NCBI GenBank assembly: GCA_027061995.1
Contig: JAMOUT010000104.1
Coordinates: 1-18,502 of the forward strand
Length of the DNA stretch: 18,502 nucleotides
Origin: Candidatus Aminicenantota bacterium
GTDB taxonomy: Bacteria; Acidobacteriota; Aminicenantia; JAMOAD01
Direction: 5' to 3'
Made by a program: the position numbers and the translations under genes. The notes beneath the pieces are model-generated. The model had not been told where the DNA came from, did not search any database, and saw only the letters and a program-made list of their open reading frames with translations. Shown here piece by piece: positions 241-4,881 of the stretch (position 1 is the stretch's first letter; every line of letters starts with the position of its first letter).

Positions 241-882
241 ATGAACATTAAAGACTTTTATTCCTTTGGCAGTAAGCTTTTATCTACTACATTTCAGGCG
301 CATGCTGAAAATTTAACATTGGATAAATCACATAATTTAATATTAGGTGTTTTTGATAATATTGATTTTCCGGTTGTTTTCAGGCAAGAATACGGGAAAA
401 AACTAACGGACATGCTTGATACTGGTTTTGTTTCTCTATTTTTAATCTCGGATAAAATGTTAAGGGTTTTAAAAGAGAATAAAATTACAGGTTGGAAAAC
501 ATATCCGGTAAAAGTATATGATAAAAAGGGTAATGAAGTTGAAGATTATCATGGCTTTTCAATTACGGGTAGAAGCGGACCTATAAATTATGACAAATCT
601 GAAATCATAGAAAAGCAACTTGCTCCCGAAGGGCCTCCGAGTAAATATTATAAAGGGCGATATTTTGGTTATGAAAAATGGGATGGCAGTGATTTTTTCA
701 TTCCCGAAGGGACTTTTTATATTATAGTAACTAAGAAGGTTGTCCAAGCCTTTAAAAAAGCCAAACTAACAAATATTAGATTTGAATGTCTAACAGATAT
801 TGAGACAATGGGTATTATTGTTGAACAAACTTTAAAAAATAAAAAATCAATAATCAAAAGATTGTTTGGTTTAGGTAAATAG
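241..882 (+). CDS. Imm11/DUF1629-like protein (probable immunity-family protein)
   Basis: This is a 213-residue soluble protein with no signal peptide or membrane segment. The middle (about residues 65-115) reads like the DUF1629/Imm11 and Myxococcus 'double-CXXCG' group: a conserved L-x-SDKML stretch, then ITGWKTYPVKVYDKKGN and YHGFSITGR. The C-terminal half has the usual WDGSDFF-x-PEGT element and a final block like 'AKLTNIRFECL'. The CXXCG zinc motifs of the Myxococcus members are absent. Imm11-type proteins are known or predicted to neutralise polymorphic toxins, but family members also occur as stray copies without a toxin. No toxin is visible here. Two small membrane-protein genes follow at once on the same strand. 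The family call comes from remembered motifs and is moderate; the immunity role is inferred. Confidence 0.5.
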   Translation: MNIKDFYSFGSKLLSTTFQAHAENLTLDKSHNLILGVFDNIDFPVVFRQEYGKKLTDMLDTGFVSLFLISDKMLRVLKENKITGWKTYPVKVYDKKGNEVEDYHGFSITGRSGPINYDKSEIIEKQLAPEGPPSKYYKGRYFGYEKWDGSDFFIPEGTFYIIVTKKVVQAFKKAKLTNIRFECLTDIETMGIIVEQTLKNKKSIIKRLFGLGK

Positions 883-2398: not shown

Positions 2399-3316
2399 TC
2401 AAGGCTTTTTATTGCTCTGGTATGTATCAGGCTCAAGATATATCTTTTTGATCTCAGGATGCTTTGCCCTTATCTCATTCTCAATCTCATCGATAACTTC
2501 CCCTATCTCATCAGCATTAAGATTATCATTAAAATCAACTTTACCCGCTATCAAAATGGAATCGGAGCCCAAAACCATGGATTTCACATATATCAATCTT
2601 TCAACACCTCTGTGAGATTTAATAACTTTCTCAATAAATCTCTGCATCTCTTCGGGTGCAGCTTCACCTATCAGCAAAGATCTTGTTTCACCACCGATAA
2701 TGAACCCGGCAATCAGTAAAATAAGACCTATAAAAACCGAACCTATTCCGTCAAATATGGGGTTTTTCGTAATCCAGTAGAGCAAAACAAATAATAATGC
2801 AATGGATAAACTTATCATCGCCGCAAGATCTTCAAGAAAAACAACTATTATCTCAGGATTTATACTTTTTTTAATATATTCAAAGTATGATAATTCCCCT
2901 TTTACCGAATCTATAACTTTTCTTGCTTTTTGAAATGAGAAATTTTCCGCCAACATAGAAAAAATAATAAGAATGATTACATAAAATATATTTTCAAGAG
3001 GTTCTTTATGTGAAATTTTCTGAATCCCTTTATATATGGAATATAAACCTCCGAGTGTGAAAAGTTGAACAGCAACAAGATACGCCCAAAAAAAACTCTC
3101 TTTTGAATATCCGAATTGATGAGATTTATCCTCTTTTCTTTGACTTTTACTTATACCTATTAATAAAAATATCTGATTGCCCGTATCAACAAAAGAATGA
3201 ATTGCTTCGGAAAACATCGATGATGAACGGGATATAAGAAATACGAATAATTTCACCAAAGCTATTGAAAGATTCGCAAGAAAAGCAAACAGGACAACTT
3301 TTTTACCTGCTTTCAT
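2399..3316 (-). CDS. Cation diffusion facilitator transporter, ZnT9-like
   Basis: This 305-residue inner-membrane transporter probably exports Zn2+ or a similar divalent metal in exchange for protons. It has about six membrane helices in the first 210 residues and a C-terminal cytoplasmic domain (about 215-300). The second helix carries SEAIHSFVDTGNQ (His40 and Asp44, the HxxxD metal-site pattern). The fifth carries LEDLAAM (Glu162, Asp163), which replaces the usual HxxxD/DxxxD and is typical of the ZnT9/SLC30A9 subgroup, as are HQFGYSKE and YSIYKGI. I place the start at the ATG complement of 3314-3316. A longer reading back to 3427 would translate the neighbour's repeat DNA out of frame. The ATG sits 2 nt after the stop of the CHSA-tail gene, so translation is probably coupled. 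It faces the broken secreted gene at its 3' side. The exact metal is not shown. Confidence 0.85.
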   Translation of the reverse strand: MKAGKKVVLFAFLANLSIALVKLFVFLISRSSSMFSEAIHSFVDTGNQIFLLIGISKSQRKEDKSHQFGYSKESFFWAYLVAVQLFTLGGLYSIYKGIQKISHKEPLENIFYVIILIIFSMLAENFSFQKARKVIDSVKGELSYFEYIKKSINPEIIVVFLEDLAAMISLSIALLFVLLYWITKNPIFDGIGSVFIGLILLIAGFIIGGETRSLLIGEAAPEEMQRFIEKVIKSHRGVERLIYVKSMVLGSDSILIAGKVDFNDNLNADEIGEVIDEIENEIRAKHPEIKKIYLEPDTYQSNKKP

Positions 3317-3318
3317 TT

Positions 3319-4881
3319 TTAATGGGCACCACCGGAAACACAGGCTGAATGACAAGCGGAGTGACAGGCGGAATGGCACGCTGAATGACAAGCCGAATGA
3401 CAGGCGGAGTGGCAAGCGGAATGACACGCATTATGCGTAAAACAGGCTGAATGACAAGCTTCCGATTTAATAAATGATTCATAATCAGTTTTAACCGGAA
3501 ATGATGTGGCTGAAGTCGTCGGTTCATTAATGAATAAGGGGTCATAATTGGAATATCTGTATCTTATGAAATTGTCACCCACTTCACTGTCATCTATGGT
3601 TTTTGCCAAAGAAGCCGGTAGATATTTCCTGAATTTATTTATATAGAATTTTTTAGTGGCATCAATATCTGCATTCCACATCTTCTCGGATACTTTTGTG
3701 GAAAGCTCTTTTAGAAGGGCGTGAATAGACTCCTGTCTAAGTCTTCCTGCAGAATCAAAACAATTCAGAAAATTCGTCTCATAATAACTAATATCTCCTG
3801 CTCCGGGTTTAAGCAGTTTTATCATCGGAGGTTTGGATGATTCAAGTTTAATAACCCCTTTTTCATCAAGTCTATAGGAAATTATAGATATGAGATTGTT
3901 TAAAGAAACTCCTATTAAAAAAAGAGCTTCTATATCATCAAGATCAGCCACTTTTCCTTTAACTCTTGCGGAGGGAACAAGGACTTTCGGAGGAACCCAT
4001 TCGGATGAAACCCAATTAAGCTCATTCCAATCCTTTAGAACAGCCCTTCTCTTTTTCACTTTTTTAATAATAAACATATATAAAAATGCGAAAATAAGAT
4101 TCAGGTATAAAAAATATTTGAATATCCCCTTTTTATTTTTTTTATATGTTTTTTCCCCGTTTTCGATTGTTTTTTGAAGAGGGGTTTTTCTGAAGGAAAA
4201 ATATTTTGCGGGAAGATATATCTGAACATTCATCTTATCATAAGCTTTTAACTCTTTTTTATGAATAAGCATGGAGAGGAATAATTTATCTTTGAAAGGT
4301 TGTCCGAAATAATCTATCAGATAATCTTTATTCATAAATTTTTCGGTTAAAATAAGTTTTGATTCTTTAATCTCTTCAAAATTAAATTTTTTCTTTTGAA
4401 CAATTATCGGTGTATAGATGTAAACGGTTTCATGCTCCATAGGATAACTCCACTGAGACGGAGCCCAATTGAATACAACAAGCTCACCGTAATCTTTGTT
4501 TGTTGTTTTTGCGAGATTACCCTCGGAGACAAGATTAACAGCAAAATGAACTATAAATTTCGCTTCCCCCGGACCAACCCTCGTGCTACTGTAAATATCA
4601 TATTTTGTCGCATTTAATCTATCAACGATAAGAGGATATTTCTTATTATTAAACATAAGATATGTCCCTTTCATATCAAAATGGGGATCTTTGGCAAAAC
4701 CTTCAAAATAAAATCCGCTCATATCTCCCGATTTAATATCCCAATCGGATATATATGTAATATCCCCTACTCCATCCTGATGAAGAGATATGGAAATTTC
4801 CACCCATTTAAGGCTGACATCAACCGAATAGAGAGCAACCGAAAACAGTATCAACACCATAAAAGAAAATATTTTCCTCAT
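3319..4881 (-). CDS. Membrane-anchored protein with Cys/His-rich CHSA-repeat tail (DUF2207-like)
   Basis: This 520-residue protein has a signal peptide (residues 1-19) and an extracytoplasmic beta-rich region (about 20-253) reminiscent of the DUF2207 N-terminal domain. One membrane helix follows (254-273) with a basic KKVKKRR stop-transfer, and then a cytoplasmic region (about 280-470) starting with WVSSEWVPPK. The tail (476-520) has C-HSA-C at 476-480 and seven perfect CHSA units at 486-513, then Cys514 and a terminal His520: ten cysteines and ten histidines in 45 residues. Cys- and Gly-rich tails are known on some DUF2207-type proteins; their function is unknown. The composition suggests metal binding, and the gene is joined to a metal transporter 2 nt downstream. 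The start has no Shine-Dalgarno but a promoter ends 5 nt before it. The family call is tentative; the architecture is directly visible. Confidence 0.65.
   Translation of the reverse strand: MRKIFSFMVLILFSVALYSVDVSLKWVEISISLHQDGVGDITYISDWDIKSGDMSGFYFEGFAKDPHFDMKGTYLMFNNKKYPLIVDRLNATKYDIYSSTRVGPGEAKFIVHFAVNLVSEGNLAKTTNKDYGELVVFNWAPSQWSYPMEHETVYIYTPIIVQKKKFNFEEIKESKLILTEKFMNKDYLIDYFGQPFKDKLFLSMLIHKKELKAYDKMNVQIYLPAKYFSFRKTPLQKTIENGEKTYKKNKKGIFKYFLYLNLIFAFLYMFIIKKVKKRRAVLKDWNELNWVSSEWVPPKVLVPSARVKGKVADLDDIEALFLIGVSLNNLISIISYRLDEKGVIKLESSKPPMIKLLKPGAGDISYYETNFLNCFDSAGRLRQESIHALLKELSTKVSEKMWNADIDATKKFYINKFRKYLPASLAKTIDDSEVGDNFIRYRYSNYDPLFINEPTTSATSFPVKTDYESFIKSEACHSACFTHNACHSACHSACHSACHSACHSACHSACHSACVSGGAH
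3343..3426 (-). repeat. Seven tandem 12-bp units encoding CHSA
   Basis: Read on the minus strand, seven consecutive in-frame units encode Cys-His-Ser-Ala without a single amino-acid change. Wobble bases vary widely: Cys TGT/TGC, His CAT/CAC, Ser TCC/TCA/TCG, Ala GCC/GCT/GCG. One more C-HSA-C element sits just upstream in the protein (3442-3456). The pattern points to old repeats kept by selection on the protein rather than fresh DNA slippage. Confidence 0.9.

Follow-up and report, generated by a model that had tools for sequence, protein, structure and literature searches.

What is the role of the cysteine- and histidine-rich tail that ends an otherwise ordinary membrane protein of a Candidatus Aminicenantota bacterium? 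The stretch of DNA analysed here, referred to throughout as the window, is 18,502 nucleotides long and encodes a 520-residue protein whose C-terminus reads CHSACFTHNACHSACHSACHSACHSACHSACHSACHSACVSGGAH (ORF 3319-4881, minus strand). A preliminary description of the sequence had counted 10 Cys and 10 His within the last 45 residues, including seven exact CHSA units, and our recount confirmed these figures. With one further unit at the start of the tail there are eight CHSA units in total, and the remaining 475 residues of the protein hold only 1 Cys and 6 His. The coordinates of the tail, of the other parts of the protein, and of the related genes and loci discussed below are collected in Table 1.

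Table 1. Features of the window protein and of associated genes and loci; entries without a locus identifier are positions in the window.
Feature	Position	Strand	Basis or remark
520-residue membrane protein with C-terminal CHSA tail, presumed radical SAM substrate	3319..4881	-	ORF translation
N-terminal signal sequence / hydrophobic helix, residues 1-19	4825..4881	-	hydropathy peak 2.2 (residues 4-22); helix in model
Extracytoplasmic beta-rich domain, residues about 20-228	4198..4824	-	AlphaFold pLDDT above 90
Single transmembrane helix, residues 253-275, then KKVKKRR	4057..4125	-	hydropathy 1.85; model helix 253-287
Cytoplasmic helical / winged-helix-like domain, residues about 295-430	3592..3999	-	conservation
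Cys/His tail, residues 476-520	3322..3456	-	10 Cys, 10 His
Seven exact CHSA units, 84 bp, wobble-only differences	3343..3426	-	unit comparison
Cation diffusion facilitator transporter	2399..3316	-	PF01545 1.9e-35; TIGR01297 above cut-off
Own-genome enzyme ortholog, with third cassette gene	G000:C83:6869-8095 (L155)	-	59% identity; unlinked to window tail gene
Own-genome third cassette gene	L155:4924-6039		start probably internal
Sister class, same kind of membrane protein ending in the fixed tail GGGCACACACAGCACACAGGGR, radical SAM enzyme adjacent	L215-L218, L222-L224; L167-L185
Hybrid tails, CHSA array broken by CAC, end CVSSCAGGF or CVSSCAGSF	L070, L089, L148, L221		own group on enzyme tree
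Third tail type SCACACVSCACACACAGGGGAGC between radical SAM gene and TPM-domain lipoprotein-like and LemA-like genes	L225:5798-9312; L226:3773-7298

Conservation and topology of the CHSA tail

The preliminary description had further proposed that the tail peptide is under purifying selection, and this proposal is strongly supported. Base differences between pairs of the seven 12-bp units number 49, and every one is synonymous and lies at a third codon position (four wobble positions); of random single-base changes to the CHSA codons, only 22% would be expected to be synonymous. On a conservative count of at least six independent changes, the synonymous-only pattern has a p of about 1e-4. Stronger evidence comes from the comparison between species, in which the tail stays fixed (~90% identity between homologues) while the core of the protein falls to ~28%. 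With the window's own genome excluded, the protein was found at 42-70% identity in 10 of 60 related genomes, and all 10 share the tail and its number of units.

To look beyond these relatives, we scanned genomes for DNA with the pattern (CHxx)5, which returned at least 116 loci, about two thirds of them short DNA repeats, so that the scan gives a lower bound on tail prevalence and no rate. At least about 35 of the loci are C-terminal CH[SDNQA]A tails that end in ACVSGG(A/S)(H/R) or close variants. Among the matches listed, the CHSA-type tail is near-invariant in at least 13 phyla, with members assigned, by record title, to Acidobacteriota, Aminicenantes, Kiritimatiellota, Verrucomicrobiota, Planctomycetota, Chloroflexota, Abditibacteriota, Myxococcota, Pseudomonadota, Spirochaetota, Thermodesulfobacteriota, Bacillota, CSSED10-310 and WOR-3, of which any single assignment can be wrong because the source records are mostly metagenome bins. 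The same scan also picked up (CHAE/CHTE/CHAD)n open frames at L086, L054 and other loci of Parabeggiatoa/Thioploca, Cys-His repeats lacking the tail ending, which may be either DNA repeats arising by chance or a further Cys/His repeat peptide.

Across the 324 units of the 43 distinct tails listed, the first position is Cys and the fourth is Ala in all 324, the second is His in 318 (six changes), and the third is Ser in 279, with Asp in 31 and Asn in 8. Units that vary sit at the outer end of the array; CHSA is almost always the sequence of the four units nearest the C-terminus. Tails contain 7, 8 or 9 units, and both the unit number and the end sequence are near-fixed across phyla. A search for frequent non-CHSA substitutions turned up changes almost confined to position 3 of the outer units, and a search for homologues lacking the Cys/His tail found a Cys-repeat tail at the end of all 28 intact core homologues in our phylum sample; neither result contradicts the preliminary description. 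The sole core match without a tail, L186, was set aside as a tail-less homologue, being a stop-interrupted fragment beside an intact copy. In almost all sampled genomes the tail protein has a single gene; a profile search found no second tail protein in the window's own genome, and the Desulfobulbus tail protein had no match in the plasmid collection that we searched.

The location of the tail relative to the membrane follows in outline the topology that had been suggested, which comprised one membrane helix and a cytoplasmic C-terminus. A signal sequence and a single transmembrane helix are predicted, and Lys and Arg residues summed over the scored members number 73 after the helix versus 43 before it, favouring a cytoplasmic tail; the window protein taken alone is ambiguous, as both sides of its helix are basic. 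A cytoplasmic tail would be within reach of a cytosolic SAM enzyme. In an AlphaFold model of the window protein built with 24 homologues, the beta-rich domain resembles ribophorin I and the M1 aminopeptidase N-domain (structural match, Z 13-16.6), and the tail is modelled as a helix with a pLDDT of only about 40. Residues about 295-430 form the most conserved region of the core in the alignments and match DUF2207_C weakly in relatives.

This same region is the only part shared with a sister class of distant core homologues, which bear the tail GGGCACACACAGCACACAGGGR instead of CHSA and are likewise encoded adjacent to a radical SAM enzyme. The CACA-type tail has Cys at every second residue and no His on the same kind of core. 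In several CACA loci the gene pair is preceded by a protein of ~110-130 residues with a zinc-ribbon-like end, CPxC...CPYC. Myxococcota-type loci, and also the genome G190, have a hybrid tail, CHSACACHSACHSACVSSCAGGF.

A radical SAM/SPASM enzyme encoded with the tail protein

In the f4 family, the gene directly after the tail gene encodes a radical SAM/SPASM protein. Using an enzyme profile, we found that in 48 of the 55 tail-bearing loci listed, a count in which the records L092 and L145 duplicate L022 and L028, a radical SAM gene begins at most ~320 bp downstream on the same strand, and that the two genes usually overlap or abut. The seven exceptions are three genomes of the f1 family, a paralogue (L052), a locus with the enzyme 1.1 kb away (L053), one whose flank was too short (L093) and one with the enzyme upstream (L224). 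The f1 family, to which the window belongs, is thus the main group in which tail and enzyme genes are unlinked. The window's own genome nonetheless encodes a full ortholog of the enzyme, with the CxxxCxFC motif, the SPASM cysteines and all cluster-binding Cys present, and because this gene lies on another contig it was invisible in the preliminary description. The ortholog is also encoded in the related genomes G001 and G003, and was not found in G004, an assembly that is 97% complete, fragmented and carries 6% contamination.

The association extends to the presence and divergence of the two genes. We searched a phylum sample of 247 genomes with a tail-free core profile and the enzyme profile; each matched 28 genomes, 26 of which were matched by both, leaving two genomes with the protein only and two with the enzyme only (Fisher p 1.4e-30, uncorrected for shared ancestry). 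In the two enzyme-only genomes, G005 and G091, a different and smaller Cys-tail protein adjoins the enzyme and has a SCACACVSCACACACAGGGGAGC stretch near its end. Among linked pairs, core and enzyme distances correlate with r = 0.78, a value reached in 0 of 5000 permutations, and part of this correlation is expected to reflect shared species history. Identity in these pairs is ~28% for the core, ~44% for the enzyme and ~90% for the tail. On the enzyme tree, the enzymes associated with CACA, hybrid and CHSA tails fall into separate groups with high support, a match of enzyme clade to tail type that is directly observed.

All 22 partner enzymes examined match PF04055 and PF13186, which places them in the radical SAM/SPASM superfamily, and the radical SAM motif and Cys positions are invariant in the aligned enzymes, the own-genome copy included. 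Among the scores listed, none exceeded the cut-off of a named NCBIfam radical SAM maturase (NirJ2, AhbD, PqqE, GeoRSP, ACGX and others); the scores lean towards NirJ2, AhbD and PqqE, each a long way short of its cut-off, and the best reached 176 bits versus a cut-off of 500 (TIGR04055). By profile, the nearest solved enzymes are the thioether-forming SkfB, which is the best match, and PqqE. PqqD (PF05402) was detected at E < 0.01 in only 4 of the 22 enzymes (best 6e-4), and in one CACA-type enzyme the match lies at the N-terminus; these matches are below the Pfam cut-off where a score is shown. As read from sequence, the enzyme profile alone does not fix the chemistry.

In most CHSA loci, 29 loci in all with the window's own genome included, the enzyme gene is followed by a third gene encoding a membrane protein of ~300 residues with the conserved motifs Q.Q...N...PY.Y and RQ.T..GY.T. 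Its model (pLDDT 80) consists of helices and one alpha/beta domain, and a fold search gave no clear match, only weak ones to YbjN and a type III chaperone-like domain (Z about 7), to which we gave no weight. The third gene was not seen in CACA loci in the contexts sampled. It is tandemly duplicated in G118 (L220:10342-12265).

Within the window, the ATG of a cation diffusion facilitator gene lies 2 nt past the stop codon of the tail gene, and the two may be translationally coupled. Elsewhere, positions 241-882 (plus strand) encode an Imm11-like immunity protein (PF07791, 1.3e-9); small membrane proteins that lack annotation come next.

Proposed modification of the tail and alternative readings

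We consider it likely that the CHSA tail is the substrate region of the dedicated cytosolic radical SAM/SPASM enzyme, which would modify it unit by unit, with a thioether as the likeliest product, in what amounts to a RiPP-like maturation cassette. In the mechanism that we infer, a putative PqqD-like (RiPP recognition) domain at the N-terminus of the enzyme would bind the membrane protein, and the enzyme would then act on successive units of the tail. By precedent, the likeliest chemistry would be a thioether crosslink centred on Cys and formed repeatedly along the array; Cys, with Ala, is shared by the CHSA and CACA tails, which makes a Cys-centred bond the leading guess. Such repeated action is known from TvgB, a radical SAM-SPASM enzyme that modifies each unit of a TVGG repeat (PMC9062424), and the formation of several thioethers within one protein subunit is known from QhpD (PMC8172795). 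The outcome would be a cytoplasmic tail that is anchored in the membrane, made rigid by covalent bonds and possibly redox- or metal-active, and its putative physiological role may be exercised together with the third membrane protein encoded after the enzyme. Points that weigh against this reading are the unlinked genes of family f1, the enzyme not found in G004, the sparse PqqD matches, the scores that also lean towards other named families and the third gene's want of a clear fold match. More tentatively, and with somewhat less than even confidence, we suggest that the three genes form an undescribed, phylum-spanning cassette in which the enzyme permanently remodels the Cys/His (or Cys/Ala) tail so that an inner-membrane protein gains a covalent multi-site centre, which would be a new class of enzyme-built protein cofactor with no secreted peptide.

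The preliminary description had instead envisaged an unmodified helix that aligns Cys and His along one face as a ladder, binding Zn, Cu or Fe directly or carrying electrons. The retention of Cys in 324 and of His in 318 of the 324 units of the tails listed would suit such a ladder, as would the cation transporter encoded directly downstream in the window. The transporter was rejected as a clue to metal binding, however, as it adjoins the tail gene in the window's own genome only and the neighbour in relatives differs. Nor does a ladder account for the radical SAM enzyme that constantly accompanies the tail, or for CACA tails that lack His on the same core: with Cys at every second residue and no His in the sister class, an i+4 Cys/His ladder is not what the two classes have in common. 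Ala is no less fixed than the presumed ligands, Ser is mostly fixed, and the tail helix is modelled with low confidence. As stated, the mechanism is not supported, and we regard the unmodified ladder as quite improbable, although metal binding by a modified tail is possible. It is very improbable, in our estimate, that the tail is a partner of the enzyme in place of a substrate, carrying iron-sulfur clusters or metals, feeding it electrons or iron, or serving as its membrane anchor. A Cys-rich sequence could bind clusters and this arrangement would yield the same linkage and co-occurrence data, but the exact repeats, the fixed Ala, the mostly fixed Ser and the enzyme clades that match tail type look like substrate specificity.

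If the tail is modified, it might also be cut off and exported as a RiPP, with the membrane protein acting as its carrier. A precursor adjoining an RRE-rSAM-SPASM enzyme is the standard RiPP arrangement, and an M17 aminopeptidase is encoded two or three genes upstream in f4 genomes. Across loci, however, the cassette contains no conserved protease or exporter, and the large globular core is conserved along with the tail, unlike a disposable leader; together with the single gene copy in almost all sampled genomes, this makes an exported product unlikely. The tandem array of 12-bp units could finally be taken for a neutral or slippage-prone C-terminal minisatellite devoid of function, and similar 12-bp DNA repeats do account for many chance matches in the (CHxx)5 scan. 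This reading is refuted by the conservation data and is scarcely credible: differences between units are synonymous only, unit number (7-9) and end sequence are near-fixed across phyla, and the tail is present in all 28 intact homologues.

The CHSA tail and its enzyme thus look like an undescribed, widespread system for rewiring a protein tail. If our reading of the tail as an enzyme substrate is true, many bacteria, including the cultured Desulfobulbus alkaliphilus, devote an enzyme to rewiring the tail of one membrane protein, and RiPP-type chemistry reaches from small peptides to a conserved protein of the cell envelope. It would also bring radical SAM chemistry together with the broad group of membrane proteins to which others have tied MNIO enzymes, and would offer a repeat substrate of natural origin that lends itself well to enzyme studies. 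As the tail sequences are fixed and matched to their enzymes, the chemistry is directly testable by mass spectrometry.

Comparison with known systems

We found no description of the CHSA tail system in Pfam, NCBIfam or the literature searched, although a mention in Haft and Basu 2011 or in subscription journals is possible. Pfam yields nothing for the window protein at E 1, DUF2207 (PF09972 / PF20990) included, and no NCBIfam model matches it above cut-off. The N- and C-terminal domains of DUF2207 match weakly in relatives, of which 5 of 24 reach DUF2207 at E < 0.1 (best 5.4e-5). The cassette of G005 and G091 adjoins genes that read by eye as TPM-domain and LemA-like; as modelled, the DUF2207, LemA and TPM families have neither a Cys tail nor a radical SAM partner. 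A 5-thiohistidine/OvoA neighbourhood with DUF2207 was discounted, having been judged unrelated by its authors.

Among characterised enzymes, TvgB resembles the proposed system in that a radical SAM-SPASM enzyme acts many times on a repeat, here that of TvgA (PMC9062424), and SkfB, along with other sactipeptide enzymes, and QhpD do so in forming Cys thioethers in a peptide or protein. The substrate sequences and host proteins of all of these differ from those of CHSA, for which the reaction is putative.

The nearest described ideas are the Cxxx repeats of TIGR04117 (Syntroph_Cxxx) and the TIGR04222/MNIO proteins. TIGR04117 likewise combines Cys at every fourth residue of a repeat with a radical SAM maturase partner, and weak similarity to it is seen in 6 of 24 CHSA members (best 2.6e-5); the window protein, at 11.4 bits and E 0.26, misses the cut-off of 50. 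That model describes a small protein of 98 positions, whereas the CHSA repeat closes a membrane protein of ~500 residues, keeps His and Ala fixed and Ser mostly so, and is paired with an enzyme that, in contrast to TIGR04117 systems, matches no named maturase above cut-off. TIGR04222 membrane proteins, which have been proposed as MNIO substrates (PMC12452194), are related membrane proteins that similarly end in a Cys-rich tail and have a modifying enzyme encoded alongside; 2 of 24 CHSA members match this family (best 1.2e-7), and the window protein does not. Their enzyme is a multinuclear non-haem iron oxidase and not a radical SAM/SPASM protein, and their tails are irregular in Ser, Gly and Cys, predicted to be periplasmic and more loosely linked to the enzyme (PMC12452194). 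As the window protein belongs by score to neither TIGR04117 nor TIGR04222, we rate the CHSA system as a variant of the enzyme-modified Cys-rich tails and peptides already known.
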